From positions 62,001-126,000 of the forward strand of contig NZ_JARKMZ010000007.1 in assembly GCF_029360775.1 (NCBI RefSeq): a stretch of DNA of 64,000 nucleotides, in the 5' to 3' direction. Source of the DNA: Daejeonella sp. H1SJ63 (lineage in GTDB: Bacteria > Bacteroidota > Bacteroidia > Sphingobacteriales > Sphingobacteriaceae). The position numbers and the translations under genes are program-made. The notes beneath the pieces are model-generated. The model made no database searches, had not been told where the DNA came from, and saw only the letters and a program-made list of their open reading frames with translations. Shown here in pieces: positions 1 through 13,089 of the stretch (its first letter is position 1; each line of letters starts with the position of its first letter).

Positions 1-597
1 CTCTGTACCCAGAACCTTAATCGCAACTTCATTGGTCTTAACTATAAAAGGGCGCTTCTTATCATGAGCCACCTTAAAGAATGCCTCACCGGTCAGCACA
101 ACATTTCGCTGCTCCTGGCTTTGCATATCAAGGTCGTATGAAAGTTTACTGTCACTGTTAAGGCGAACCAGAGTTCCATCAGGTAATTTTACTTCCTTGC
201 GAATACCCTTTCCTGCAATGATGTCTACTCTTACGTCTTTTTGTTTAAACTGGCGAAAATTAAAGAAGTAAAGCGATGCAGATATCAATATGCAGATTAG
301 CATAGCATAAGCTATAATGGGTTTTTTAAGGATAGAAAATAAAGACCGCTCCTCCCTTACCTCAACAAACTCAAGCTCCGTTTTATATTTCAGCTTATGC
401 TTCTCAAAAGCTTGCTGCACATCTTCACTTTCATCTCTTTTTCCCAAATCCCATACCTGATCAAGCAAAGCCTCATAGTAAACCGCATCGGGATATTTAG
501 ACAATAAATAAGAAAGTTCCCCCAGTTCTTCCGGAGTAGCTTCCCCGGCAATTTTGCGGGTTAACAATTCAACTATGCGCTTTTCGTGCATGACCAT
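1..597 (-). CDS. FecR-family anti-sigma factor, C-terminal part outside window
   Basis: Open frame with no stop from a start at 597 (Met-Val-Met; a second Met start lies at 591) to the window edge, 199 codons. The N-terminal ~80 residues form the cytoplasmic sigma-binding part, a single membrane segment lies at about residues 93-113, and a FecR domain begins near residue 120 with the typical sequence LPDGTLVRLNSDSKLSYD followed by an LTGEAFFKV motif. In this family the protein spans the inner membrane, holds the ECF sigma factor, and relays a signal from an STN-bearing SusC/FecA receptor. It lies 86 nt downstream of the ECF sigma gene on the same strand, so the two probably form one unit; the expected SusC partner would be beyond position 1. 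Confidence 0.9.
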   Translation of the reverse strand, partial: MVMHEKRIVELLTRKIAGEATPEELGELSYLLSKYPDAVYYEALLDQVWDLGKRDESEDVQQAFEKHKLKYKTELEFVEVREERSLFSILKKPIIAYAMLICILISASLYFFNFRQFKQKDVRVDIIAGKGIRKEVKLPDGTLVRLNSDSKLSYDLDMQSQEQRNVVLTGEAFFKVAHDKKRPFIVKTNEVAIKVLGTE

Positions 598-683
598 TCA
601 GACTCTTTATTGTGGTTTTATTTGAAGGACAACGAAAAAAGAAAAACTCCCTAGTCTGATTGAAAATATTTTCCGGAAGGGAA

Positions 684-1256
684 TTATTTAATTTGAAACT
701 CTGCCTTAAAAATGAGTGCAAGTTTCTGCGTGGCTGCTACCAGATGGGCATCAACAGTTTTAACTGATATGGAAAGTACTTCTGCTATTTCTTTATAACT
801 CAGATTATTTTCCTTGGCAAGCTTGAACACCAGCTGGCACTTAGGAGGCAAGCTCTGAATTGCACGTTCAAGTCTCTGTTTTAACTCGTTGTCAATAATG
901 ATTTGCTCAGGACTCGAGCTGTCGAAGAAAAAATTTATATCCACATCGTCAATAGATGCAGTTTTATTCTTTGAATTTTTACGAAGTATGTTTAAAGATA
1001 AGTTCTTGGCAATAACAAGTGCATAGACATGTATGTTATTGATCTGCGGCAATGAATCCCTTTGCTTCCAGAGTGTGATCATGACATCTTCAGCCACCTC
1101 TTCTGCCTCTTCATTAGATTTAAGTATGCAAAATGAAAACTTTTTAGAAGGAAGGTACAGTAAATTAAACAGCTCACGATAAGCCTGTTCACAGCCTGAC
1201 AATGCCAAACGGCTTACTATTTCAGGAAGCTGATTAAACTGATTTTTCACAAGCAT
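684..1256 (-). CDS. ECF RNA polymerase sigma factor (FecI-like, Bacteroidetes type)
   Basis: 190 aa. A sigma region 2 is visible at about residues 35-95 (NEEAEEVAEDVMITLWK, the -10 recognition helix), and a region 4 helix-turn-helix at about 135-180 (SYKEIAEVLSISVKTVDAHL). No other domain is present, as expected for an ECF factor. In this family the sigma is kept inactive by FecR and activates transcription of a neighbouring TonB-dependent SusC/SusD pair. It directly precedes the FecR gene at 597-1 on the same strand. A second sigma/FecR pair lies at 19341-21194, so the window has two independent trans-envelope signalling modules. Confidence 0.92.
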   Translation of the reverse strand: MLVKNQFNQLPEIVSRLALSGCEQAYRELFNLLYLPSKKFSFCILKSNEEAEEVAEDVMITLWKQRDSLPQINNIHVYALVIAKNLSLNILRKNSKNKTASIDDVDINFFFDSSSPEQIIIDNELKQRLERAIQSLPPKCQLVFKLAKENNLSYKEIAEVLSISVKTVDAHLVAATQKLALIFKAEFQIK

Positions 1257-1332
1257 TAAAGTTCTCCTAACCTAAGGTAACAGAAATTTAACAAATGCAA
1301 AAAATAATTCACTACAGGATAATTTCTGAAAA

Positions 1333-2685
1333 TTATCCCCTGAGTGCAGACATGATCACATCATAAACCTTTGTTGCAGGGATTGAATCTACCGTATGTT
1401 TATAATCAGAAATCAATACAGGCTGATATTCGGGAAGGGCCCCGGTTCTGCCATGCGAACCTTTAATCAGAGATGCATCCAAAGGAATAACATCCATCAC
1501 ATATCTGAACCCTGCCTTTTTCTTAAGGAGCTTATACCCTGCACGAAGTTTGGAACTCATAAACATCTCAACCGGATCATAGCCTGGTTTTTTATGAATA
1601 TCCACACACCGTGCATAATCAGGTGCTTTCTCATCGTCGAGCCAGAAATAATAAGTAAACCAGCTGTCTTCATCAGCCATAAGTACCAGATCTCCTGAAC
1701 GTTCATGATTTATATGATGCTCAGCCTGTTGCTCTTTATCCAGAATCAATTCTACCCCCTTCACCTCTTGCAGCAATGAAATTACCTGGTTTTTCACTGA
1801 TGGATCATTGATATATACATGAGCAACCTGATGGTCAGCTACCACAAAAGCTTTGGAAGCACCCGGATCCAACAGTTCGAGACCTCTTTCCTCGCGGATA
1901 CCCAACAATCCATGTTCTCTGAATAAACGGTTCAGATGCAATGGATGTTTAACCGGAGCTATCCCATATTCTGAAAGCAGAATAACTTTAGCTGATTTTT
2001 TCTCATAAAAATCAACAAGTTTTCTGAGCACTTCGTCAATCTCTGTCAGCTCCTTACTGATTTTCGTAAAATCCGGGCCGAATTTCTGAAGACAATAATC
2101 CAGATGGGGAAGATAGATCAGTGTTAATGTCGGATTATACAAATCATCCGTAATCATACTTGCGTCTGCAATCCACTCTGTAGATTTAATATTAGCTCCG
2201 GGCCCCCAGAATTGAAATAATGGGAACTGTCCAAGTTTTTCCTGTAATATATCTCTCAGTCCGGCCGGATGAGAATAACAATCCGGCATTTTTCGTCCGT
2301 CTGCCAGGTAATTCGGACGGGGAGTAACCGCGTAATCTGCAGATGAATACATATTATACCACCAGAACATTTTTGAACAGGTAAATGAAGGATCTTCCTT
2401 CCTTGCTGCCTCCCAAATTTTCTCGCCGTTTACAAGCTTATTCGATTGCTTCCAGAATTTGATCTCACAATCTATCCTGTCGTACCAGCCATTGCCAACA
2501 ATCCCTGTTTCTGCAGGCCATTTTCCGGTCAGATAGGTGGATTGAACTGAAGTGGTCACTGCAGGTAGCATAGGCTTAAGCCTTATCAGGTTTTTGCGCT
2601 TCACATAGTCGCTCAAAAAAGGCATATACTCTCCAATGACAGAAGTTGAGAGCCCGACAATATCGATAACGACGGTTTTATTCAT
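1333..2685 (-). CDS. eboF: EboF: alkaline phosphatase/nucleotide pyrophosphatase-fold protein, last gene of ebo operon
   Basis: 450 aa, no signal peptide. The alkaline phosphatase superfamily fold is recognisable: a metal-site Asp near residue 8 (VVIDIVG), the nucleophile strand with Thr at 44-45 (LPAVTTSVQSTYLTG), and a late KGSHGR motif supplying a His ligand. Two motifs differ from ordinary phosphodiesterases: the usual SDHG block reads LSEYGI, and the Asp-His block reads LPHLDYCLQKFGPD, so metal binding may be altered. Substrate is unknown. It is the sixth and last gene of the collinear eboA-F cluster, 8 nt after eboE. The assignment as EboF rests on this context plus family resemblance. 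Confidence 0.85.
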   Translation of the reverse strand: MNKTVVIDIVGLSTSVIGEYMPFLSDYVKRKNLIRLKPMLPAVTTSVQSTYLTGKWPAETGIVGNGWYDRIDCEIKFWKQSNKLVNGEKIWEAARKEDPSFTCSKMFWWYNMYSSADYAVTPRPNYLADGRKMPDCYSHPAGLRDILQEKLGQFPLFQFWGPGANIKSTEWIADASMITDDLYNPTLTLIYLPHLDYCLQKFGPDFTKISKELTEIDEVLRKLVDFYEKKSAKVILLSEYGIAPVKHPLHLNRLFREHGLLGIREERGLELLDPGASKAFVVADHQVAHVYINDPSVKNQVISLLQEVKGVELILDKEQQAEHHINHERSGDLVLMADEDSWFTYYFWLDDEKAPDYARCVDIHKKPGYDPVEMFMSSKLRAGYKLLKKKAGFRYVMDVIPLDASLIKGSHGRTGALPEYQPVLISDYKHTVDSIPATKVYDVIMSALRG

Positions 2686-2693
2686 GTGGTTGA

Positions 2694-3902
2694 TTATTTC
2701 AATTCAGCCTTAACCCAGTTGAGTTCCCTGATAATGCTTTGATCGATTGGTAACTTTAATGTCTCCGGTAATACTTCCCATGTATACGTTTCTACTTCCA
2801 GATGATCTGTAAAAGGATTGCTTTTGTACCTGTGTAAAATTTCAACGATATCAGAACGGGTAGAGCGAAGCAGACCAAGATTCTCTGCAAATACGGGAAC
2901 ATGAAAATGAGCTCTCCATTCTTCCACATCCAAATTTTCAGCATCCTTCAGAGCATCGGGAAGATCACGGTAACGGATCAGTGAACGATCTGATTTACGG
3001 GCAATTACCTGATGCAAATAGGTAGGTTCCATATATTTTGAAAAAGCTTCCGCCGTATCTTTTCTCAGATCAGCATCAGCAGACATCCCGGCTTTCAAGG
3101 CTGCACTGATCTGAATTTTTCCGACACGGATCCCTCTGGCCGACAGATCTGCAAGGATATCGTTCATAGGCTCATATCCGATTGCAAAGTGGCAAACATC
3201 ATAACATAAACAGATGTGTTCTTTGATACAGGATATTGCTTCTGCTTCAGTAATCTGTAACCGGGACGGAAGCACAGCCTTTGCCACAGGGAGCATGTAA
3301 TTTTCAAACCAGTGAATAAACTCTGGTCCGGTTTCAAGCAACCCATCTGGTTCAGGTTCAATATCCAGATGTAAACCGATACCTTTTTTTTCTTTTATCC
3401 GGTAAAGATGTTCAGCTACTGAAACAATATGATGAGTGGCATTCAGCATGGCTTTCTCTGCCAGCTGCCTGGTTGGAAACCAATATTTATAACTTAGCGG
3501 GGATGTGGAAATACCGCCTTCAAGACCTTCAGGTAGCAATTCAGCAAGTATATCAAACAGGCGAAGGGTATACTCCAGTCTTTCGTTACTGGTCCAGTCT
3601 GGAGCATGTACCTGGTCTTTCACAAGGGCATGATGAAAATCACCATACGGAAATCCATTCATGGTGAAAACATAGGCATCATTTTCTGAAAGCCATTTCT
3701 TGAAAATCTGCAACTGATCAGCCTTCAAAATATCCCGGCTTGCAGAATTTGAAAGTCTTAGACCTATACCCATAGCCTGATCAGGGGAAACTCCCTTTTT
3801 AATAACGGGAATGTGCTTTTTTAAAGCAGCAAAATGCTCAGCCCAGCTCTCCCCGGCATGTATATTTGTACAATAGCTTAAATGTCCGTGTACAAGTTTC
3901 AT
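2694..3902 (-). CDS. eboE: EboE: sugar phosphate isomerase/epimerase-like TIM-barrel metabolite traffic protein
   Basis: 402 aa, starting MKLVHGHLSYCTNIHAGESW, typical of EboE. It has an AP-endonuclease-2/xylose-isomerase-type TIM barrel with acidic and His metal-ligand candidates in HLDIEPEPDGLLE (about 178-190) and CYDVCHFAIGYEP (about 233-245). The reaction is not known. Work in Nostoc implies that the ebo set is needed for scytonemin monomer export to the periplasm, hence the 'metabolite traffic' label. Its start codon overlaps the eboD stop codon by 4 nt, which implies translational coupling. The xylose-isomerase-like fold alone would not fix the function; the operon does. Confidence 0.9.
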   Translation of the reverse strand: MKLVHGHLSYCTNIHAGESWAEHFAALKKHIPVIKKGVSPDQAMGIGLRLSNSASRDILKADQLQIFKKWLSENDAYVFTMNGFPYGDFHHALVKDQVHAPDWTSNERLEYTLRLFDILAELLPEGLEGGISTSPLSYKYWFPTRQLAEKAMLNATHHIVSVAEHLYRIKEKKGIGLHLDIEPEPDGLLETGPEFIHWFENYMLPVAKAVLPSRLQITEAEAISCIKEHICLCYDVCHFAIGYEPMNDILADLSARGIRVGKIQISAALKAGMSADADLRKDTAEAFSKYMEPTYLHQVIARKSDRSLIRYRDLPDALKDAENLDVEEWRAHFHVPVFAENLGLLRSTRSDIVEILHRYKSNPFTDHLEVETYTWEVLPETLKLPIDQSIIRELNWVKAELK

Positions 3903-5029
3903 TGCTTTCCTATTAAAACCAATTCAGCCTTTTTCAGTATCTCCGCATCCATCTTATGCACTTCTATTCCTGAGCCTATCTTTTCAAGCAGCATAATGGT
4001 CAATTCGCCACCAAGGTGCTCACGAAACTCTTCCAGGCCAAGCAAAATCTTAGAATTATCGCTTCCCGTTTCCATCAACGGGTGGGTAAGCTCAAATCCT
4101 AATTGCTGCAACAGGCTTAATATTCTTGAGCAATCATGATCTGATAAATAACCCGAAAGATTAGAATATACCGTATCCAAAGCCATTCCCATAGCTACAG
4201 CTTCACCATGAAGCACCTTAAAATCAGTAAGCTGCTCCAGTTTATGGGCGCTCCAGTGACCAAAGTCCAGCGGACGGGAAGATCCCGATTCAAACGGATC
4301 TTTGCCGGCAATATGCTGCATATGAAGCTCAGCACATCTGATGATCAGATAATTCATCGTTTCCCTGTCGCGGGCAGCAAGCAAACCTGCATTAGTCTCA
4401 ATCCACTCAAAAAATACAGGGTCTTTAATCAAAGCAACTTTTACTGCCTCAGAAATACCCGACCTCCAGTCGCGTTCTCCAAGAGTATTTAAAAAAAGTT
4501 CATCATTAAATACTGCAAACGGCGGAGCAAAGGTTCCAAGGAAATTTTTCTTACCGAAATAATTAATACCATTCTTTACTCCGATCCCCGAGTCGTTCTG
4601 CGAAAGAACCGTTGTTGGTATACGGATATGCCTGATCCCTCTGTGCGATACTGCCGCAGCATAACCCACAAGGTCGAGCACTGAACCTCCGCCAATAGCT
4701 GCAATATAAGAATGCCTGTCGATCTTATGTGTATTTACAGCCTCCAGAATTTGATCGAAATATTTAGTATCATTCTTAACCTGCTCTCCTCCCGGAACAA
4801 ACAAGATCTCAGGAACAAGATTTAAAGCCTTATATAAATTGAAATAAGCATTTATCTGATCAGAAACCACCCTGCCAACACCCTCATCCACAACAAAGAA
4901 AATTTTCTTTGAACTGTCATCTGATTTGAAAAAATCATTGAAGAGCGGATTTGAAAGATCAAAGAGTCCGGATGTAAAATATACTTTGTATTCAAACTTA
5001 ACAGAAAAGGATTGTTGCAGATATTTCAT
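3899..5029 (-). CDS. eboD: EboD: 3-dehydroquinate synthase-like protein
   Basis: 376 aa. The sugar-phosphate cyclase/dehydroquinate synthase fold is clear: NAD-binding AAIGGGSVLDLVGYAA (about 111-126), the PTTVLSQNDSGIGVKN block, and zinc-ligand segments GISEAVKVALIKD, DFGHWSAHKLEQL and LHGEAVAMGMALD. The set of ligands appears intact, so a cyclase reaction on a sugar phosphate is plausible. The position between eboC and eboE argues that it is not the housekeeping AroB of the shikimate pathway but the ebo paralogue. It overlaps eboE by 4 nt, and 57 nt containing a small hairpin separate it from eboC. Confidence 0.92.
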   Translation of the reverse strand: MKYLQQSFSVKFEYKVYFTSGLFDLSNPLFNDFFKSDDSSKKIFFVVDEGVGRVVSDQINAYFNLYKALNLVPEILFVPGGEQVKNDTKYFDQILEAVNTHKIDRHSYIAAIGGGSVLDLVGYAAAVSHRGIRHIRIPTTVLSQNDSGIGVKNGINYFGKKNFLGTFAPPFAVFNDELFLNTLGERDWRSGISEAVKVALIKDPVFFEWIETNAGLLAARDRETMNYLIIRCAELHMQHIAGKDPFESGSSRPLDFGHWSAHKLEQLTDFKVLHGEAVAMGMALDTVYSNLSGYLSDHDCSRILSLLQQLGFELTHPLMETGSDNSKILLGLEEFREHLGGELTIMLLEKIGSGIEVHKMDAEILKKAELVLIGKQ

Positions 5030-5038
5030 AGAATAAGA

Positions 5039-5058
5039 CTCATTCCGAAGCGAATGAG
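5039..5058 (-). other. intercistronic hairpin ahead of eboD
   Basis: Read on the minus strand, CTCATTC and GAATGAG form a 7-bp stem around GCTTCG, ending 9 nt before the eboD start. No U-run follows in the sense direction, so it is not a normal terminator of the ebo mRNA. It may tune eboD translation or mRNA ends. Seen in sequence; the role is inferred. Confidence 0.35.
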
Positions 5059-5086
5059 ATAGTTTTTTAAGTAAATATAGTTTTCT

Positions 5087-5968
5087 TTAAGTAACGGCAA
5101 AACGTTTCGCAAGCAGTAATGACAAGGGGAGCAGAGCTGCTATGAAACATGCACCAACCAGAAACCCCGAGGCTGCTGCCCATGCCGCATCCATCAGGAT
5201 CAGAGAAATAACCCCGGCTTTGACTGCTTTGCCAATATTTTTCCCAAGCGGCTCCCGAATTGCTGCAAATAATGGTTTGTAAATCATATACGCGAACAAA
5301 ATAATAAACAAACCTGATAGTATTAACTCTCCCTGCACCCATGAATGATACAAAACAGCACTGATTACAAGCAAATACAGAAAAGCGCCCAGATAGAGTT
5401 TATTCCTGTTTGATCCGTGTACCTCGCCCTGACTGATCATGGTTATTGAGAAGATATAGATCAGAGGTATCAGGCCTAAAAAGTAAAAACTCTGAAGAGA
5501 CAGGCTAATGATGCTGATTCCAAGCAAAAGATTCAAACCTCTGCAGATACCCATGTTCAGCGGACCTAAAAAGGCATGATGCTTTCCGAATTTATCATAA
5601 ATAAGGGCAAATACGGCAATCAAAAATGCAATAACTCCAGACAGTACAGATAATGCAAAGGCAGCAAAAACCCCAATCATCAATAAAACAATTCCAAATA
5701 CTATTGCTTCTGATAAACTTACTTCACCTCGCGGAATTGCCCGTTCGGGCCTTTCTATCCTATCGAGGTCTGCATCAAAAACATCGTTGAAAACAATCCC
5801 TCCCCCATACAATCCAATAGTTGACAGGCAAAGTAAAAGTACCGGGATTATTTGAGGATTTTCAGTCAAAAAATATCCTGAAACAGAAATACCCGCCAAT
5901 ACATCTGCAACTGAAGTCACAATATTTGCAGGGCGCATCAGTCGCAGATATACTCCGGCCTTGGTCAT
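5087..5968 (-). CDS. eboC: EboC: UbiA-family prenyltransferase
   Basis: 293 aa integral membrane protein with about eight hydrophobic segments. The first aspartate-rich motif NDVFDADLDRIERPERAIPRG (about residues 61-81) is the UbiA signature that binds a polyprenyl diphosphate through Mg2+; the second site is weaker, around YDKFGKHH. The family attaches prenyl chains to aromatic or polar acceptors in the membrane; the acceptor here is unknown. It lies third in the collinear ebo operon, 4 nt after eboB. With EboD as a candidate cyclase, it suggests that a prenylated cyclic product is made by the pathway, which is inference. Confidence 0.92.
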   Translation of the reverse strand: MTKAGVYLRLMRPANIVTSVADVLAGISVSGYFLTENPQIIPVLLLCLSTIGLYGGGIVFNDVFDADLDRIERPERAIPRGEVSLSEAIVFGIVLLMIGVFAAFALSVLSGVIAFLIAVFALIYDKFGKHHAFLGPLNMGICRGLNLLLGISIISLSLQSFYFLGLIPLIYIFSITMISQGEVHGSNRNKLYLGAFLYLLVISAVLYHSWVQGELILSGLFIILFAYMIYKPLFAAIREPLGKNIGKAVKAGVISLILMDAAWAAASGFLVGACFIAALLPLSLLLAKRFAVT

Positions 5969-5972
5969 TCAA

Positions 5973-6956
5973 TTAAGAAATTATGATTGATGACTTATCG
6001 GTACGCGGTACTTGTCCGCCTCTAAGAACAGTATTGCCTTCAAATCTTTCGGTCTGATCGATCTGCTGAGGGCCGATAAAATCATTTTCATCAATCTGCC
6101 CGCTTTGTGCAAAAGCAGTGATTGCATTTGAATATGTGATCTTACGGATATCCTCATCACTGATGCCTCTTAACTTCATTAGGGCAGCAGTTTTAGGCAC
6201 TGCCAAAGGATCGCTTATCCCCCAATCGGCAGCCGAGTTGATCATGATCCGCTCTGAGCCATATTGCCTGGTCAGCTCTACCATCCTTTCATTCCCCATT
6301 TTGGTAAACGGGTATATCGTAAATGCAGCCCAAAATCCGCGATCAAGCACTTCCTTAACTGTTTCTTCATTATTATGATCAACAATGACCATATATGGGT
6401 CAAGACCATGCTCTATGGCAATATCCATACTACGTTGTGTTCCGCGCTTTTTATCACGGTGAGGAGTATGTATCTGAACCGGAAGGCCTGCCTCTTTGGC
6501 AAGCTCCAGCTGTAATCTGTAATATTTTTCTTCAGCAGCAGTCTGATCATCAAATCCTATCTCGCCTACTCCCACCACACCTTCTTTATAAACAAAGAGC
6601 GGTAGAATTTCCATTACTTCTTCAGCCAGCCCTTCATTGTTCGCTTCGCGCGAGTTCAGACCTATCGTGCAATAATGTTTAATTCCAAACTGAGAGGAAC
6701 GGAATCTTTCCCAACCTACAAGACTACTGTAATAATCACGAAAACTGTCAATTCCGGTACGTGGCTGTCCCAACCAGAATGCCGGTTCAATCAATGCAAC
6801 AACTCCTGCATCGGCCATTGCCTGGTAATCATCAGTGGTACGCGAGCTCATATGAACATGGGGATCAAAAAATTTCATCCCTTTAATGATCTCAAGATCC
6901 ATCTTTTCTATCGGGGCCAAAGGCCGCTTGTCTTCAAATGAATGGCTACAACACAT
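5973..6956 (-). CDS. eboB: EboB: TatD-like metal-dependent hydrolase
   Basis: 327 aa. An amidohydrolase-superfamily TIM barrel of the TatD type: metal motif FFDPHVHM (about 29-36), a central Glu in GVVGVGEIGFD, His in PVQIHTPHRDKKRGTQ and in MVIVDHNNEET, and a late Asp in NSAADWGISDP. All expected ligand positions appear present, so a metal-dependent hydrolase is likely; the substrate is unknown. The start is uncertain: the first ~18 residues (Cys-Cys-rich) are unusual, and an internal Met at about 6902 (MDLEIIKGMKFFDPH) would give a more typical N-terminus. Second gene of the ebo operon, 20 nt after eboA and 4 nt before eboC. Confidence 0.9.
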   Translation of the reverse strand: MCCSHSFEDKRPLAPIEKMDLEIIKGMKFFDPHVHMSSRTTDDYQAMADAGVVALIEPAFWLGQPRTGIDSFRDYYSSLVGWERFRSSQFGIKHYCTIGLNSREANNEGLAEEVMEILPLFVYKEGVVGVGEIGFDDQTAAEEKYYRLQLELAKEAGLPVQIHTPHRDKKRGTQRSMDIAIEHGLDPYMVIVDHNNEETVKEVLDRGFWAAFTIYPFTKMGNERMVELTRQYGSERIMINSAADWGISDPLAVPKTAALMKLRGISDEDIRKITYSNAITAFAQSGQIDENDFIGPQQIDQTERFEGNTVLRGGQVPRTDKSSIIIS

Positions 6957-6976
6957 TTCTTCTCAGTTTATATAGT

Positions 6977-7846
6977 TCAATCTTCAGGATTCAGTGTATC
7001 CCAGTTAAGCTCTTTATTTTTAATTGCTGCCAAAAACTCAGGATGTTCATCCAGCAGATCCGCTGCAGGTTGAAAATCTGAATAATACAGGGTAAGGGCA
7101 GCCGCCTGCTTTTCTCTTTTACTTCCATGCTTAATTAGCTCTCCAAGATCATTCAGCAATTCTGCATCCATAAATTTAGCAGTAAGTCGCCAAAGGAAGG
7201 GGTTAATCTTCCTGCCCGCAGCTTTCCGCTCAGCTGTATAGTCAGAAATAGTAGCCTTCAGATCGGCATTGGCGCGTTCATCCAGACCGATAATCCTGTT
7301 AACATCCTTATCCGTAAAGAAAGCCTTCATCACCAGTTGATTCCAGGCATTTTCATCCAGATAATCAGAAGGATAAGGATTATCATACATAATTGCTTCA
7401 AGAACAGAACCAATATTACTGCGAATACCTTCGGCACATCTCAACTTCCATGCATCTGCCCAGGCTAATACCGGAAGTGATGAGTACAGAGCTACCAGCT
7501 CAGAAACTTCGGCTGTGAGAAAAAGATTTTCAACTGTCTTTACGTATACTGCATGATCGGTAGCATCCAGGTTAAAGATCAGATAAATACGTCCAAGACG
7601 ATCAGCAGTCCAATTTTTAAAGGTTAAGCCCGGCTTGATGCTATTAATCTCCTCTGAGAGTTCATCACTAACATGTACTACTGATTTTCCGGTCTTACGC
7701 GGCATCAGGACAAATGCGGTATTAAAATCTGCAATTTTTCCGGAATTGATTTTTTCATTTAACCAAATCCAGGCATCAGAGTTCAGGGTTGAACGGGTAA
7801 GTTCAGTAAGGATTAGTCTTAATCTTTCTGCATCGTAGTCAAACAT
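6977..7846 (-). CDS. eboA: EboA domain-containing protein, first gene of ebo operon
   Basis: 289 aa, soluble, no signal peptide. The middle segment (WADAWKLRCAEGIRSN, then EAIMYDNPYPSDYLDENAWN, about residues 129-168) is the recognisable EboA hallmark. It is largely helical with Asp/Glu-rich repeats and has no known catalytic motif. Function is unknown; in cyanobacterial and pseudomonad clusters EboA always travels with the other ebo genes. It heads the operon here: 112 nt of AT-rich DNA separate it from the next upstream gene, and the five genes behind it follow with gaps of 20 nt or less apart from the 57 nt before eboD. The operon promoter should lie in 7847-7958; I could not identify a convincing -7 box. 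Confidence 0.9.
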   Translation of the reverse strand: MFDYDAERLRLILTELTRSTLNSDAWIWLNEKINSGKIADFNTAFVLMPRKTGKSVVHVSDELSEEINSIKPGLTFKNWTADRLGRIYLIFNLDATDHAVYVKTVENLFLTAEVSELVALYSSLPVLAWADAWKLRCAEGIRSNIGSVLEAIMYDNPYPSDYLDENAWNQLVMKAFFTDKDVNRIIGLDERANADLKATISDYTAERKAAGRKINPFLWRLTAKFMDAELLNDLGELIKHGSKREKQAAALTLYYSDFQPAADLLDEHPEFLAAIKNKELNWDTLNPED

Positions 7847-7958
7847 AGCCCAAAATTGATTTATAAATTACTCAAATAGCAATTATTTGCAGCGAAATTT
7901 AAAAAAAATCAGACAGATTCTGCATTTGCCTTATTTAATAATTACGCTGAATAGCTGC

Positions 7959-8333
7959 TTAAATTCCCCCCGACACAAAATAATTCAAAGCCAATGCTGC
8001 TGCAATAATTAACAGACCGAAAAATTCGCGGGTATTCTCAATATAAGGCTTTGTAGCCTGCATACTTTCAGTAATACTTGGTTGTTTATATTTCAGAATC
8101 CAGTCGCGAACTCCGTCTTTCGTAAAAAACAGAATAATGGCATAAATCAGATAAAATGCAATCAGAAACAAATAGGTCATTGGATAATACATTCCGAATC
8201 CGGCCAGTCCGCAAAGTATGGAAGCAGCCATATAGATAGGTACCCAAAGCCAAAAATCGCTGTCATTCAGATTAAACCATGCAAAAACAAGGAATGACAG
8301 GCAAAAGATAATATTCAGGATGAGCAGTAACAT
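7959..8333 (-). CDS. TMEM220-like small membrane protein
   Basis: 124 aa with four hydrophobic segments (about 1-20, 27-50, 52-68 and 103-122). The FAWFNLNDSDFWLWVPIY segment (about 17-34) matches the Asn-Asp-Pro-Asp-containing motif of the TMEM220 family, here with Ser in place of Pro. The family is of unknown function in both bacteria and animals. It is on the same strand as eboA, 112 nt upstream, and could be transcribed into the ebo operon, but nothing links it functionally. Confidence 0.7.
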   Translation of the reverse strand: MLLLILNIIFCLSFLVFAWFNLNDSDFWLWVPIYMAASILCGLAGFGMYYPMTYLFLIAFYLIYAIILFFTKDGVRDWILKYKQPSITESMQATKPYIENTREFFGLLIIAAALALNYFVSGGI

Positions 8334-8400
8334 AATTTATATTGATTTGGAGCTAATGTATTCCATAAAATGGATATGTAAAATGATCTGGATCATGAAT

Positions 8401-9222
8401 CTAATCAAAAAGCGAATATTGTACCGGCCTCATCATTCCAGACATAAGCTTTTTATCATTTTTCCCTATATGATAAACTTTAGATTCACAATACCGGGAT
8501 GCCACTACAATTTCTGTATTGCCTGCAATTTCCCCGAACAAATCCAGCACAAGTTCAGGTTTATTATTATCCCTGCTTAAATGCGAAAGCAGCAAATGAC
8601 TCATTTGAGTCCCCATTTCCTGAAAGATCTCAAATGCCTGTCTGTTTGACAAATGTCCGTTGCCTCCCCTGATTCTTGCTTTCAGATGGTAGGGATAGGT
8701 ACCTTTATCCAGCATATCCTCATCATAATTTGCTTCCAGAAATGCAGCATGGCACCCTGAAAGATGATGTATCAAATGATCGCAGGGAGTTCCGATATCT
8801 GTAAAAACACCAACTCTTACGCCTCTGCAGCTGACAGTAAAACTATGCGGATCAGCGGCATCATGAAATTTGGGAAATCCAAGAACAGAGAGCTCTCCGA
8901 TTAAAATTTCTTCATTTGCATTAAAGTGCCTGACCAGCTGCTCATCAAGTTCAAATCCGGTGCTTTTTAACGTTCTTTGAGTGATATAAACAGGCAATCT
9001 GTATTTTTTTGACAAAACCGGAATCCCCCGGATATGATCAGAATGCTCATGAGAGACAAATATAGCCCTTACTTTTTCCATTGAAAGACCCATACGTGCC
9101 ATACGCCTCTCCGTTTCTTTGCAACTCAGGCCTGCATCAACAAAAATAGCATCTTTCTCATTGGCAAGATAATAGCAATTGCCATTACTGCCCGAATTCA
9201 ATGATGCAAAGGATAAAGCCAT
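8401..9222 (-). CDS. MBL-fold metallo-hydrolase, YycJ/WalJ-like
   Basis: 273 aa. Starts MALSFASLNSGSNGNCYYL, the characteristic N-terminus of the WalJ/YycJ group, and carries the zinc motif SHEHSDH at about 56-62 plus further ligands in GVFTDIGTPCD and LLLSHLSRDNN. The family is a metallo-beta-lactamase-fold hydrolase, probably a nuclease linked to cell-wall and DNA homeostasis; the exact substrate is not settled. Monocistronic-looking, 67 nt upstream of the TMEM220-like gene. Not a beta-lactamase in the resistance sense. Confidence 0.88.
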   Translation of the reverse strand: MALSFASLNSGSNGNCYYLANEKDAIFVDAGLSCKETERRMARMGLSMEKVRAIFVSHEHSDHIRGIPVLSKKYRLPVYITQRTLKSTGFELDEQLVRHFNANEEILIGELSVLGFPKFHDAADPHSFTVSCRGVRVGVFTDIGTPCDHLIHHLSGCHAAFLEANYDEDMLDKGTYPYHLKARIRGGNGHLSNRQAFEIFQEMGTQMSHLLLSHLSRDNNKPELVLDLFGEIAGNTEIVVASRYCESKVYHIGKNDKKLMSGMMRPVQYSLFD

Positions 9223-9320
9223 GAAGAATGAACTATTTTCTGTAGCTCTAAAATTACAGAAAAAGATTAAAGAGTATTCATAATGGTCTATATTCGTTTA
9301 ATTCATCAATTAACTAAACA

Positions 9321-9863
9321 ATGAAACTAAAAGGCTACATATTTTTATCTGCCATATTATGCTTAGGCTTTACAGATGTAATTGCCCAAAGAAAAAAAGT
9401 GATCAACTATACTGAAATAAGTGCCTTAATCCATGGCAGCACATCGTTAACAGACAATTCTGAACTTAACGGATTCAGAACAAGAACCGGAGTATCAAGA
9501 TTGATCGGTGAAAATTTCGGATTTGGCTTTGCCCTTGGAACAGATAATTTCAAAAATGCAGGTGGCAAAACCTATAATACCCTGCCACTAACCCTGAATG
9601 CATCCTATTTTTTCAATCCTGAATTAAGCGGACTTAAGGCAGATTTATACGGCGGTTATGCTGTAAAACTGTTTAATAATCTGAGTAAGGGACTAACAGC
9701 CGGTGCAGGATTGTCTTATTCATTCCCGGTAAATTCCGGACTCAATCTCGGAATTCAAACCGGCTATAATTATCAGAAGATAGACTATCCCATGGGTTTT
9801 GTGCTCGGCAGCAGTTTTGACATCAGTTCTATTCGCCTTGGTCTGGGGATAACTTTTAAATAA
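9321..9863 (+). CDS. small outer-membrane beta-barrel protein
   Basis: 180 aa. A cleavable Sec signal peptide is visible (hydrophobic 5-18, cleavage probably after the Ala-Gln near residue 22-23). The mature part alternates polar and aromatic/hydrophobic residues in strands such as GFGFALGTDNFKN and GLTAGAGLSYSF and ends in a strand with C-terminal Phe-Lys, as expected for an 8-stranded outer-membrane barrel. No specific family recognised; function unknown. It stands divergent from the WalJ-like gene and 43 nt ahead of aguB. Confidence 0.65.
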   Translation: MKLKGYIFLSAILCLGFTDVIAQRKKVINYTEISALIHGSTSLTDNSELNGFRTRTGVSRLIGENFGFGFALGTDNFKNAGGKTYNTLPLTLNASYFFNPELSGLKADLYGGYAVKLFNNLSKGLTAGAGLSYSFPVNSGLNLGIQTGYNYQKIDYPMGFVLGSSFDISSIRLGLGITFK

Positions 9864-9906
9864 ATTCAGTAATTTTGCGGCCTTTACGGGACCAATCTTA
9901 TTGAAC

Positions 9907-10794
9907 ATGTCAAAAAGCAAGTATTCCATCGCTGTTCTGCAGCTGAATCTGAACGATAAACCTGAAAACAATTTAAAAAAATGTATCAGCTGGGTTCGTG
10001 ACGCTGCGGCAAAAGGAGCAGAAGTAATTTCACTTCCCGAGCTTTACAGCAGTCACTACTTCTGCCAGTCAGAGGATACGGCAAACTTTTCACTTGCAGA
10101 ACCCCTGTACAGCACATCATTTACCGCTTTCAGTGCTCTTGCAAAAGAATTGGGTGTAGTAATCATTGTCCCTTTCTTCGAAAGAAGGATGGCTGGTATT
10201 TATCATAACAGTGCGTATATTATTGATACCGATGGTACTGAAGCAGGATTATACCGTAAGATGCATATTCCGGATGATCCTCATTTTTACGAAAAATTTT
10301 ATTTCACTCCCGGAGATATAGGCTTCAAAACCTTCCCTACAAAAATAGGGAAAATCGGAACGCTGATCTGCTGGGATCAATGGTATCCGGAAGCTGCAAG
10401 ATTAACAGCAATGCAGGGTGCAGAAGTACTTTTCTACCCAACTGCCATAGGCTGGCATCCGCTGGAGAAAGCCCGGTACGGAGAGAAGCAGCATAATGCC
10501 TGGATGACAGTTATGAAAGGCCACGCAGTAGCTAATGGTGTTTATGTGGCTGCAGCAAACCGCATCGGCCTGGAGCAGTATATTCCGGGGACTGCCGGCA
10601 TTCAGTTCTGGGGTTCTTCCTTTATTGCCGGACCGCAGGGAGAGATCCTGGCCCAGGCTTCGCATGACCGGGAGGAAATACTGATTGCAGAAGTTGACCT
10701 GCAATTACAGGAAGATGTACGTCAGAACTGGCCTTTCTTCAGAGACCGCAGAATAGATGCTTTTGGAGATATCACAAAAAGAGCAATCCTTTAA
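9907..10794 (+). CDS. aguB: N-carbamoylputrescine amidohydrolase
   Basis: 295 aa nitrilase-superfamily enzyme that hydrolyses N-carbamoylputrescine to putrescine, CO2 and ammonia. The catalytic Glu-Lys-Cys triad is visible: E45 (SLPELYSSHY), K118 (YRKMHIPDDPHFYEKFYF) and C155 (GTLICWDQWYPEAARL); the HIPDDP and YPTAIGWHP segments are typical of AguB rather than of other nitrilases. ATG at 9907 is preferred to the in-frame TTG at 9901. It is followed by aguA after a single base, so the two are clearly an operon performing the agmatine-to-putrescine route. Confidence 0.95.
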   Translation: MSKSKYSIAVLQLNLNDKPENNLKKCISWVRDAAAKGAEVISLPELYSSHYFCQSEDTANFSLAEPLYSTSFTAFSALAKELGVVIIVPFFERRMAGIYHNSAYIIDTDGTEAGLYRKMHIPDDPHFYEKFYFTPGDIGFKTFPTKIGKIGTLICWDQWYPEAARLTAMQGAEVLFYPTAIGWHPLEKARYGEKQHNAWMTVMKGHAVANGVYVAAANRIGLEQYIPGTAGIQFWGSSFIAGPQGEILAQASHDREEILIAEVDLQLQEDVRQNWPFFRDRRIDAFGDITKRAIL

Positions 10795-10795
10795 G

Positions 10796-11833
10796 ATGAG
10801 TACAACAAGAAGATTTCCTGCAGAGTGGGAGAATCAACAGGGTATTTTACTTTGTTTCCCTCATAATGGTAAGGACTGGCCGGGTAAATTCGGAGCCATA
10901 CAATGGGCTTTTACCGAGTTTATTAAAAAGGTAAGTATTTTTGAAGAGGTATTTTTGCTGGTCAGGGATGAAAAGCAGAAACTCAGCGTCAGGGAAATGC
11001 TTGAAATGGCTCATGTTAAGCTCGAAAAAGTTTCCTTTATCATTCAAAAAACCAACCGCAGCTGGATGCGCGACTCCGGTCCGATCATCGTTAGGAATGG
11101 TTCGAAAAGAGAGGCTCTGAACTTCAACTTTAACGGATGGGCAAAATATAAGAATTATAAACTTGACAGGAATGTTCCTGCTAAGGTCGCATCATTCCTG
11201 AACGTACCTCTTAGTCAGGTAAGCTATAAAGGAAAACCGGTGATCCTTGAGGGTGGTGCAATAGATGTGAACGGTAAGGGAACCCTTCTTACATCCGAAG
11301 AATGTCTGATGGATCAGAAAACCCAGGTAAGAAACCCGGGACTCAGCAAAACTGACTATGAAGCAATCTTCAAAGAATATCTGGGAGTGAGCAATGTGAT
11401 CTGGCTTGGCGATGGAATTACAGGTGATGATACCCACGGACATATTGATGATCTTGCCCGTTTTGTCAATGAAGACACAATCATCACAGTTGTTGAATCT
11501 GACCCCGAGGACAGCAACTATAAAGCACTGCAGGAAAATCTGAAACGTTTACAGAGTTCCAGATTAGAGAACGGAAAAACTCCAAAGATTGTGTGCCTGC
11601 CAATGCCCGGGGCACTTGAATTTGAAGGATTACGATTGCCGGCAAGCTATGCCAATTTCCTGATTATGAACAAATCTGTACTTGTGCCTGTATTTAATGA
11701 TCCGCGTGACCGTGAAGCCCTGAATATTATCGCAGAATGTTTTCCTGACAGAACCATCATTCCAATCAGCGCAATCGACCTGATCTGGGGATTCGGAACA
11801 CTGCATTGCTTAAGTCAGCAAATACCTGAATAA
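10796..11833 (+). CDS. aguA: agmatine deiminase
   Basis: 345 aa from ATG 10796, one base after the aguB stop; an upstream in-frame Met inside aguB (10757) is less likely. It converts agmatine to N-carbamoylputrescine plus ammonia. Guanidino-group modifying fold with substrate-binding WMRDSGP (about 90-96), HGHID (214-218) and catalytic Cys338 in GFGTLHCLSQQ at the extreme C-terminus, all intact. Together with AguB it gives a cytoplasmic polyamine pathway starting from arginine decarboxylase product; no arginine decarboxylase gene is in the window. Confidence 0.95.
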   Translation: MSTTRRFPAEWENQQGILLCFPHNGKDWPGKFGAIQWAFTEFIKKVSIFEEVFLLVRDEKQKLSVREMLEMAHVKLEKVSFIIQKTNRSWMRDSGPIIVRNGSKREALNFNFNGWAKYKNYKLDRNVPAKVASFLNVPLSQVSYKGKPVILEGGAIDVNGKGTLLTSEECLMDQKTQVRNPGLSKTDYEAIFKEYLGVSNVIWLGDGITGDDTHGHIDDLARFVNEDTIITVVESDPEDSNYKALQENLKRLQSSRLENGKTPKIVCLPMPGALEFEGLRLPASYANFLIMNKSVLVPVFNDPRDREALNIIAECFPDRTIIPISAIDLIWGFGTLHCLSQQIPE

Positions 11834-11913
11834 ACGGTCATCAGAAAATTCTGAGCTTATTTGCAGTTCCTCATAACATTGGCCTCAGGTTAAATTTATA
11901 CGGTACCCTGTTC

Positions 11914-13089
11914 TTACAGCAGCAGACTATCAATCCTGTGTGCATGCACTATACTATCACATGGAGACCAGGTAAAAATTGTAAACCCTCCGTCCTGAGA
12001 TGCAACCAGAGCAATGGCATCTCTCTGATCATGAACAAATTGTGCAGCCGAAGTATGCCGTGTACCACCACTTCCGGCAGGATTAACCAATCGTCCTTCA
12101 CCGCCGATAATAGGCTCAGTGAGGAGAATCTGTTCAACCCGCGGATTACCATCTATATGGCCAATTTTAGCACCAAAAGCAAGGACTTCATGCTTCTCGC
12201 TGATTACAGTGGCCCCGTCTATTGCCGTTAATCCGGCTATGCTTTCAATTTCTCGATTAAGATCCCCAAGCCATACAGTTGAATTCCATTTACTCTGATC
12301 TTCTTTCATAAGATCCGTTAAACCAGTATATGGAGGAGAGACGGAGTATTTTACAGGCCGGAGTATAGATTTCCGCCAATGATCGGCTCCTGAAGGCACC
12401 ACAAGCAAAGTTCCCCCATGCTTGTGAGCACGCATGGAGGCAGCCAGCTGAATCAGAACATTCACAGAATTATCTTCAGATGCAGAAGCAAATCCGAGTA
12501 ATGAAGAGAGCAAGACCGGGCAATCCGGCAGGTTTCGACTGCTTTCATCCACAACCTTGATCTGATCTCCTATGAGAACGACAATATTGGTGAATTTACC
12601 GAATCCATTCATTCTGCGATGTTTAATCACAAGCAAGCCGGGTTCTGAAACGTCCAGCACAAAACAGTAGTTGGGTATCTTATGGGTTGTTCCCCAGACA
12701 TACATGCCATTATCATCAAACCACACACCAAGGTGAATGCCGGGGCGTTCTACTCCCGGACCAAGCTTTGTCAATACTCCTGCATTAAATGCAAGTCTGT
12801 TCTCAAAACAAAGAGGATATCCCGCCTGTTCAGGTGAAAGAAAGGCCAGAGATATCTTGGGTGAATTTCCCTCTTCCCTCCTTAAACTGGCCCAAAAAGC
12901 TGTGTCCAGCATCATTTCAATTTGCCCTGCAGTTGGTGCAGCCGCAAGATCCTTTTCACCGCTTTGCATGGCTTCTTCCAGATGGGAAGAAAAATGTCTT
13001 TCCGCAATAGAAGCCACTGCAGAGGCCGCCTTATATGTTGATTCGGTAAGCATGGTAGAATATCCGCTGTTTTTTTCTCTAATATACAT
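11914..13089 (-). CDS. DACNV sensor plus diadenylate-cyclase (DAC/DisA_N-like) domain protein
   Basis: 391 aa, soluble. The C-terminal half (about 210-375) looks like a DAC domain: a DGA motif at 291-293, FGAKI at 305-309, and GGTRHTSA at 341-348 in the place of the classical RHR(S/T)A ATP-binding motif, followed by the strand AIALVASQDGGFTIFTW. The N-terminal ~200 residues fit the DACNV sensor module that accompanies such domains in many Gram-negative genomes. c-di-AMP synthesis is possible, but the second Arg of RHR is Thr here. Start at 13089, 6 nt after the LLM gene's stop; an internal Met at residue 13 is an alternative. Co-transcribed with the upstream flavin oxidoreductase gene. Confidence 0.72.
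   Translation of the reverse strand: MYIREKNSGYSTMLTESTYKAASAVASIAERHFSSHLEEAMQSGEKDLAAAPTAGQIEMMLDTAFWASLRREEGNSPKISLAFLSPEQAGYPLCFENRLAFNAGVLTKLGPGVERPGIHLGVWFDDNGMYVWGTTHKIPNYCFVLDVSEPGLLVIKHRRMNGFGKFTNIVVLIGDQIKVVDESSRNLPDCPVLLSSLLGFASASEDNSVNVLIQLAASMRAHKHGGTLLVVPSGADHWRKSILRPVKYSVSPPYTGLTDLMKEDQSKWNSTVWLGDLNREIESIAGLTAIDGATVISEKHEVLAFGAKIGHIDGNPRVEQILLTEPIIGGEGRLVNPAGSGGTRHTSAAQFVHDQRDAIALVASQDGGFTIFTWSPCDSIVHAHRIDSLLL

Follow-up and report, generated by a model that had tools for sequence, protein, structure and literature searches.

A TMEM220-family membrane protein gene associated with the ebo operon in Daejeonella and other Bacteroidota

As described by Yurchenko 2016 (PMC5133447), the ebo operon occurs in Bacteroidetes, cyanobacteria, Leptospira and eustigmatophyte plastids, and whilst the cluster was named in 2016, no paper naming its product was found. 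A 64,000-nucleotide stretch of a Daejeonella genome (Sphingobacteriaceae), hereafter the window, carries such an operon with a gene for a TMEM220-family membrane protein directly upstream of eboA, and so raises the question of whether this neighbour belongs to the Ebo system. The relevant features are as follows.

1333..2685, minus strand: eboF, PF01663 family with an altered metal site (PF01663, 7e-59)
2694..3902, minus strand: eboE, TIM-barrel-type protein (NF035939, 497 bits)
3899..5029, minus strand: eboD, probable sugar phosphate cyclase (NF004852, PF01761, PF24621)
4265..4267, minus strand: codon of EboD D255, Asn in DHQ synthases and Asp in cyclase 4p53
4322..4324, minus strand: codon of EboD H236, Lys in DHQ synthases (alignments)
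5087..5968, minus strand: eboC, UbiA-type prenyltransferase (NF035940, 396 bits; PF01040)
5973..6956, minus strand: eboB, TatD-like metal hydrolase (PF01026, 1e-17)
6977..7846, minus strand: eboA, predicted all-alpha solenoid (NF035938, 161 bits; NF035937, 204 bits)
7959..8333, minus strand: TMEM220-family gene (PF15071, 2e-24), directly upstream of eboA
8016..8039, minus strand: TMEM220 E99 xx R102 E103 xx G106, conserved in 89, 88, 89 and 89 of 89 distinct ORFs
8256..8267, minus strand: TMEM220 N23 D24 x D26, conserved in 89, 89 and 87 of 89 distinct ORFs

The six ebo genes were complete and collinear on the minus strand (six ORFs, 1333-7846), and family models agreed with the identities proposed in the initial annotation. 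Its description of the gaps as mostly under 25 nt held for A-B (20 nt), B-C (4 nt), D-E (-4 nt) and E-F (8 nt), and failed for C-D (57 nt). The same six genes recurred in the same order in most related loci, which argues that the cluster is not a chance assembly; some of these loci had inserts, truncation at a contig end or a c'b'a'DEF order. Among the hosts were named Pedobacter, Mucilaginibacter and Chitinophaga strains, and a tree of EboE, holding ebo loci only and no outside paralogues, placed the window among Daejeonella. It is virtually certain that the host is a Daejeonella species and that its ebo operon is complete and of the ABCDEF type. The operon is also ordinary, being of the kind already described in Bacteroidetes, with which it shares all six genes, their order and the phylum. 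The Bacteroidota host had been presented as noteworthy, an emphasis that was misplaced given that this phylum was the most represented in the 2016 survey and that the ABCDEF order was called ancestral there (PMC5133447). That study proposed a prenyl-cyclitol product, and the gene identities, together with a prenylated cyclic metabolite as a product not yet known, agree with PMC5133447 and PMC6282210. The ebo genes of Nostoc punctiforme are orthologous to those of the window, though they are linked to scytonemin and the cluster proper lacks eboD (PMC6282210).

Family searches gave EboE 497 bits against the NF035939 cut-off of 250, confirming its identity, whereas EboA passed the EboA domain model NF035938 (161 bits, cut-off 50) and fell short of the subfamily model NF035937 (204 bits, cut-off 320) (NCBIfam). 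The initial annotation had named failure of EboA in its family HMM as a ground for refutation, and this ground applies in part, at the subfamily level and not at that of the domain. Neither EboA nor EboE had a Pfam match at E<=0.01, and the EboE profile retrieved nothing from PDB sequences at E<=1. The AlphaFold2 model of EboA (pLDDT 96.7) contained 18 helices and had no Foldseek match in the PDB at E<=0.001; judged from this model, EboA is probably a scaffold. In EboB, whose start is uncertain owing to further in-frame ATGs at residues 19 and 27, residues H33, H35, E132, H163, H194 and D244 were intact and conserved in 102/102 distinct aligned ORFs; as in all residue counts here, rows were within length limits and a few ORFs were near-copies. 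We take these six residues to be metal ligands from their roles in the TatD family. EboB scored 39.7 bits against the TatD DNase model TIGR00010, for which 206 are needed. EboC exceeded the NF035940 cut-off of 250 (NCBIfam) and matched PF01040 (Pfam), and its motif N61 D62 xx D65 xxx D69 was found in 101/101 distinct aligned ORFs. On the basis of PF01040 and this NDxxDxxxD prenyl-diphosphate motif, EboC is assigned to the UbiA superfamily.

EboD matched PF01761 and PF24621 (Pfam) and scored 560 bits against NF004852 (cut-off 333), a model named 3-dehydroquinate synthase (NCBIfam), but only 228 bits against the AroB model TIGR01357, where 305 are needed. Residues E194, H258 and H274 were retained, whilst H236 and S/A251 replaced the Lys and Arg of DHQ synthases, a pair which we take to bind the substrate carboxylate. 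Of 114 distinct ORFs, 113 had His at position 236; the exception was the genome's own AroB, with Lys. Comparison with the cyclase 4p53 revealed a mixture: the two are alike at positions that are presumably Zn-ligand, NAD and phosphate-site residues, and at D255, and differ at H262 (as in DHQ synthase; Pro in 4p53), at the lysine place, where EboD has His, and at the arginine place, where it has Ser or Ala. Judged by its residues, EboD is probably not a DHQ synthase but a sugar phosphate cyclase without the Lys/Arg pair. A role as the cell's DHQ synthase was ruled out by this difference at position 236 and by a separate aroB in the same genome (G000:C21:12426-13376; TIGR01357, 349 bits).

EboF, a PF01663 family member by its sequence model, has an altered metal site. 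In alignment with 3szy, Q200, E239 and Y240 replaced His, Asp and His, and these substitutions were conserved in 112, 110 and 112 of 113 distinct ORFs. The full two-metal ligand set of type I phosphodiesterase/NPP was thus absent from EboF, with three ligands replaced; the ligand roles are assumed from phosphonoacetate hydrolase. The initial annotation had been silent on this loss of standard metal ligands and on the TMEM220 neighbour.

The TMEM220 protein scored 86.6 bits against PF15071, over the curated cut-off of 27 (Pfam), and its model (pLDDT 87.6) has four long predicted helices. Foldseek found no fold match for this model at E<=0.001, and a profile search of PDB sequences gave 16 hits with a best E of 0.37, taken as chance. 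The spacing to eboA in the window (112 nt) was counted against assuming a single transcript. A glycoprotein secretion screen (PMC6979480) places human TMEM220 at the Golgi; the Pfam family is common to it and the window protein by name.

In a sample of Bacteroidota genomes, TMEM220 was present in 18/24 with ebo against 22/272 without (p 3e-13), 21 of the latter 22 copies being over the family cut-off, and counting by genus gave 13/16 against 14/123 (p 1e-8); owing to kinship among the genomes and to partial overlap between named and unnamed samples (L098 and G003, for instance, are one genome), such p values overstate independence. Within the window's own family the counts were 19/20 against 2/17, or 18/19 against 3/18 as searched, the 20 including one genome (G010) in which the contig ends within ebo, ahead of eboE. 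Restricting this family to genomes of at least 3.5 Mb gave 9/10 against 2/10 (p 0.005). Amongst named ebo-bearing genomes, the best 80 of 586 and biased to kin of the window, TMEM220 was found in 75 and missing from five; the 75 comprise 30 with TMEM220 beside ebo, which were left at that, and 45 from the remaining 50, in which TMEM220 was sought anywhere in the genome (47 without TMEM220 beside ebo, three with).

The two were also neighbours more often than control regions would suggest. TMEM220 lay within 3 kb of ebo in 41/107 distinct loci, against 0/40 control regions (p 2e-7; p 9e-7 leaving out five control regions from genomes lacking TMEM220). The locus set comprised 109 loci (the 80 named, 7 of 19 relatives' loci and L211-L232), two of them doubles, and the count of 41 misses L039, where TMEM220 stands beside eboA and block-finding had absorbed an eboF-like gene upstream; the controls, of 20 kb each, were chosen by hand at round coordinates in 17 ebo-bearing genomes. 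Four arrangements of TMEM220 next to ebo were seen, including an overlap of 4 nt with eboF in locus L211, with 13 changes of arrangement along the EboE tree (15/94 rows left uncounted). The TMEM220 copies formed several separate clades in a tree of 130 columns and 89 rows, in which 36/86 inner branches were open; all trees were quick or FastTree. A chance neighbour within one genus was ruled out, as TMEM220 occurred beside ebo in other families and on other sides of the operon. Adjacency held in 6/24 ebo-bearing genomes of the phylum sample and 33/80 named genomes (best 80 of 586), hence TMEM220 is not adjacent in most. An obligatory ebo gene was likewise ruled out: six of the 24 ebo-bearing Bacteroidota genomes lacked TMEM220, and so, unlike the window, did all 146 sampled cyanobacterial genomes, including the five with EboE, from which it follows that ebo can work without TMEM220.

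Both neighbourhood and co-occurrence thus link TMEM220 to ebo, and these sequence comparisons make it a likely functional partner, which we propose as a seventh, of the operon in Bacteroidota. No paper joining TMEM220 and ebo was found, and the word TMEM220 is missing from the main text of Yurchenko 2016 (PMC5133447), which shows flanking genes in its figures and supplement. The pairing looks new and gives both puzzles a testable link: TMEM220, of a family common to humans, gains a first bacterial pathway for testing, and the translocation model gains an added candidate in a membrane protein encoded with ebo. That model comes from Klicki 2018 (PMC6282210), in which Nostoc ebo mutants showed a transport phenotype, translocation across the inner membrane was proposed, and a capsule ABC permease encoded elsewhere was invoked.

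We infer the Ebo product, its substrate and the role of TMEM220. EboD would cyclise a carboxylate-free ketose phosphate, such as sedoheptulose 7-phosphate or a like compound, to give a cyclitol, which EboB, EboE and EboF may trim or isomerise, with the EboA solenoid keeping the enzymes at the membrane; EboC would attach a chain, farnesyl or similar. Being amphipathic, the product would remain in the inner membrane and aid the passage of a strain-specific small molecule, in keeping with the Klicki 2018 proposal for Nostoc, whilst TMEM220, with its conserved NDxD/ExxRE polar face, could move this lipid or alter its head group. As a whole, a membrane prenyl-cyclitol aiding small-molecule passage, with TMEM220 handling the lipid, is the most likely reading, though a tentative one. 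Its extension, whereby TMEM220 flips the prenyl-cyclitol carrier lipid or modifies its head group and the human relative has a related lipid role in the Golgi, is very unlikely; if true, a bacterial operon would show what a so far uncharacterised membrane protein of humans does biochemically.

Alternatively, this could be a plain ebo operon with TMEM220 a mere frequent companion, both kept by free-living Bacteroidota with large genomes. Both are patchy accessory genes, TMEM220 does occur in the 22 genomes without ebo, and 12/18 copies in the sampled ebo-bearing genomes lay away from it; against this stand the repeated adjacency in four arrangements and the contrast that persisted at 3.5 Mb and above, which leave the explanation a minority possibility. 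A similarly doubtful proposal concerns the product, which could be a released prenylated aromatic (e.g. a farnesylated quinoline) with its ring from EboD, in place of a membrane lipid. EboC of Maribacter, Zobellia and Algoriphagus (Ubi-297), which shares the aspartate motif of the window EboC, farnesylates 8-hydroxyquinoline-2-carboxylic acid (8-HQA) in vitro and favoured quinolines among 14 aromatic acceptors; homologues accept 8-HQA and quinaldic acid but neither phenols nor catechols (PMC9235831), and a Pseudomonas cluster with ebo genes was required against nematode grazing (reported in PMC6282210). These substrates, however, were aromatics offered in the assay; the conserved Arg145 was removable without loss (PMC9235831), and Nostoc mutants accumulated scytonemin monomer in the cytoplasm, with no lipid-conjugated monomer seen (PMC6282210). 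Cofactor synthesis, named as an option by Klicki 2018 (PMC6282210), would make the transport defects secondary to a small cofactor for other enzymes. None of the six ebo genes matched a transporter family (NCBIfam, Pfam), but a prenyltransferase with a membrane partner would suit a lipid better, and we regard a cofactor as improbable.

The surroundings of the locus added little. An upstream MBL gene, sought in eight relatives without ebo, gave four hits, and as no other ORF of the window or of L022 matched in these four regions by BLAST (one being cut by a contig end), the empty-site comparison says nothing. Sigma-70-like promoter sites numbered 23 against 22.3 expected, which is uninformative, and Rfam had no match over window positions 1-12000. 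At distances of up to 6 kb from ebo, ThuA genes were present in 9/107 loci (0/40 controls), GSDH genes in 10/107 (1/40) and cytochrome c genes in 9/107 (1/40), a weak lead to other recurrent neighbours that we do not claim.

The six ebo genes were found complete and in order on the minus strand of the window (1333-7846), as the initial annotation had described, and its statement that the intergenic distances are mostly under 25 nt was borne out by spacings of 20 (A-B), 4 (B-C), 57 (C-D), -4 (D-E) and 8 nt (E-F). EboC and EboE scored far above the NCBIfam equivalog cut-offs, EboD exceeded that of NF004852, and Pfam searches assigned EboB to PF01026 and EboF to PF01663. The family-HMM check proposed for EboA and EboE held for EboE, which passed its own model, and only partly for EboA, which passed the EboA domain model but scored 204 bits where the subfamily model requires 320. 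The identity of the operon is near certain. The window lies within contig C54 of a 3.65 Mb genome, and EboE trees placed it among Daejeonella, inside the Sphingobacteriaceae. EboE was present in 19 of 60 relatives, the window's own genome counted, and in 15 of 20 genomes of the genus, or 16 of 20 if G010 is included, a genome counted separately because its eboABCD runs off a contig end.

Yurchenko 2016 surveyed 148 taxa, named the operon, considered the ABCDEF order to be the ancestral one in both Bacteroidetes and Cyanobacteria, and put forward an isoprenoid-cyclitol as its product (PMC5133447). Klicki 2018 found that the scytonemin monomer stays cytoplasmic in Nostoc ebo mutants, and suggested that a capsule permease uses a prenyl-sugar carrier (PMC6282210). 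EboC of three Bacteroidota is reported to farnesylate 8-HQA (PMC9235831). Given these three papers, the operon as first noted was already known in kind; among the open-access matches listed, no later paper naming an ebo product was found. Pathway and transport roles for ebo may be proposed from its protein families and by analogy with the Nostoc work. The new part of the finding is a link with the membrane-protein family TMEM220, one member of which is encoded beside the operon:

7959-8333, minus strand, TMEM220-family gene directly upstream of eboA (PF15071, 2e-24)

The gene was immediately upstream of eboA in 16 of 19 relatives' loci and missing from that position in L026, L032 and L037. In three other genera it lay 2, 9 and 13 nt from eboA (L040, L039 and L038, respectively), with different genes further out. 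Among 296 Bacteroidota genomes drawn, EboE was found in 24 and TMEM220 in 40 (39 over the cut-off), and the two occurred together in 18 where approximately three were expected (p 3e-13). Counted by genus in the same draw, TMEM220 was present in 13 of 16 ebo-positive and 14 of 123 ebo-negative genera; within the window's family the corresponding figures were 19 of 20 and 2 of 17 genomes, and none of four ebo-negative Daejeonella encoded it. In 80 named ebo-positive genomes, being the best 80 of 586 loci and leaning towards kin of the window, TMEM220 adjoined ebo in 30, counted by adjacency alone, and a whole-genome count of the remaining 50 located it somewhere in 45. It lay within 3 kb of ebo in 41 of 107 distinct loci versus none of 40 control regions, picked at round coordinates in ebo-positive genomes. 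In cyanobacteria, EboE was detected in 5 of 146 genomes and TMEM220 in none, the TMEM220 model having matched nothing in that search, controls included, whilst matching in Bacteroidota. The association is well supported in Bacteroidota, though the link is not obligatory. A second TMEM220 gene lies away from ebo in the window's genome (L192:7116; G000:C21:568666-568983), and several Daejeonella carry two copies.

The arrangement varied. TMEM220 was 5' of ebo on the same strand in most Sphingobacteriaceae listed, Ferruginibacter, Segetibacter, Salegentibacter and Flagellimonas, and 5' and divergent in four Chitinophaga, L119 and L121. In family f26 (L211, L212, L232) it followed ebo on the same strand, overlapping it by 4 nt or separated from it by 12 to 20 nt, and in L146, L154 (2.2 kb away) and the second copy of L110 it was 3' and opposed. 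On the EboE tree 13 changes of arrangement were needed, gains and losses together, and in the TMEM220 tree the ebo-linked copies were spread over several separate clades, partly starred. Among 36 TMEM220 loci fetched as ebo-distant, one of which is the ebo-linked L204, the most frequent common neighbour cluster occurred in five.

The TMEM220 model comprised four long helices (pLDDT 87.6) and gave no match in the PDB. Across 89 distinct ORFs, residues N23, D24, D26, W30, Y34, E99, R102, E103 and G106 were almost invariant. Going by the number of helices, the NDxD loop and the ExxRE motif that opens the last helix would lie on the same face, which basic residues at 72-84 suggest to be cytoplasmic. 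Human TMEM220 is described as Golgi-resident and affecting glycoprotein secretion (PMC6979480). Among the literature matches listed, no paper joining TMEM220 with ebo, eboA or a UbiA prenyltransferase was found, and the word is absent from the main text of Yurchenko 2016 (PMC5133447).

EboD was aligned to solved dehydroquinate (DHQ) synthases and the cyclase structure 4p53; D119, R130, D146, K152, N162, E194, K197, H258, H262 and H274 were kept in all rows (114 distinct ORFs). In place of the Lys and Arg with which DHQ synthases bind the substrate carboxylate, EboD has H236 and S/A251, and D255 stands where DHQ synthases have Asn. The sole row with K, R and N was the genome's own AroB (L002), which passed the aroB model with 349 bits, whereas EboD failed it with 228. 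Lacking the Lys/Arg pair and failing this model, EboD is unlikely to use DAHP; its substrate is better guessed to be a ketose phosphate that lacks a carboxylate, in line with what Yurchenko 2016 had proposed from phylogeny (PMC5133447).

EboA gave an almost entirely helical AlphaFold2 model (pLDDT 96.7) with no Foldseek match in the PDB at E<=0.001, helical-repeat proteins being only loosely alike; the model fits the scaffold idea of Klicki 2018 (PMC6282210). Of 113 distinct EboF ORFs, 112 have Q200, 110 have E239 and 112 have Y240; H, D and H stand in the row of L039_3250, a gene caught by the eboF profile upstream of TMEM220 in L039. In a weak match (E 0.0006) to the phosphonoacetate hydrolase 3szy, these residues replace His, Asp and His, which we take to be zinc ligands, so EboF may hold one metal or act unlike its PF01663 family.

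Directly 3' of eboF is an ECF sigma factor gene (684-1256, TIGR02985), beyond which FecR-, SusC-, SusD- and Gfo/Idh/MocA-like genes were recognized by eye on the same strand (L022:210-8257); this stretch resembles a polysaccharide utilisation locus and is probably distinct from the ebo operon. Nitrilase-like and agmatine-deiminase-like genes, also identified by eye from translations, adjoin at 9901-11833 and are likely a putrescine pathway pair. Sugar-oxidation genes (ThuA, GSDH, cytochrome c) occurred near ebo (L138:1139-4546, L172:12727-16077, L149:12613-13791), being within 6 kb in 9-10 of 107 loci versus 0-1 of 40 control regions, a weak recurrence; they were also near some ebo-unlinked TMEM220 copies.

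Several records were unusual. L174, filed as Thalassovita (Pseudomonadota), carries eboDEF in a genome with TMEM220 and grouped among Bacteroidota in the EboE tree, which points to mis-binning or transfer. L097, a MAG filed as Sphingobacterium thalpophilum, grouped with Daejeonella in that tree and is probably misnamed. L214 (G231) had an eboE match split in two pieces and a 707-aa eboF frame with an odd N-terminus, a frameshift or over-long frame. In the archaeal control genome of Haloferax volcanii, EboE model matches fell below the cut-off and perhaps represent a distant relative.
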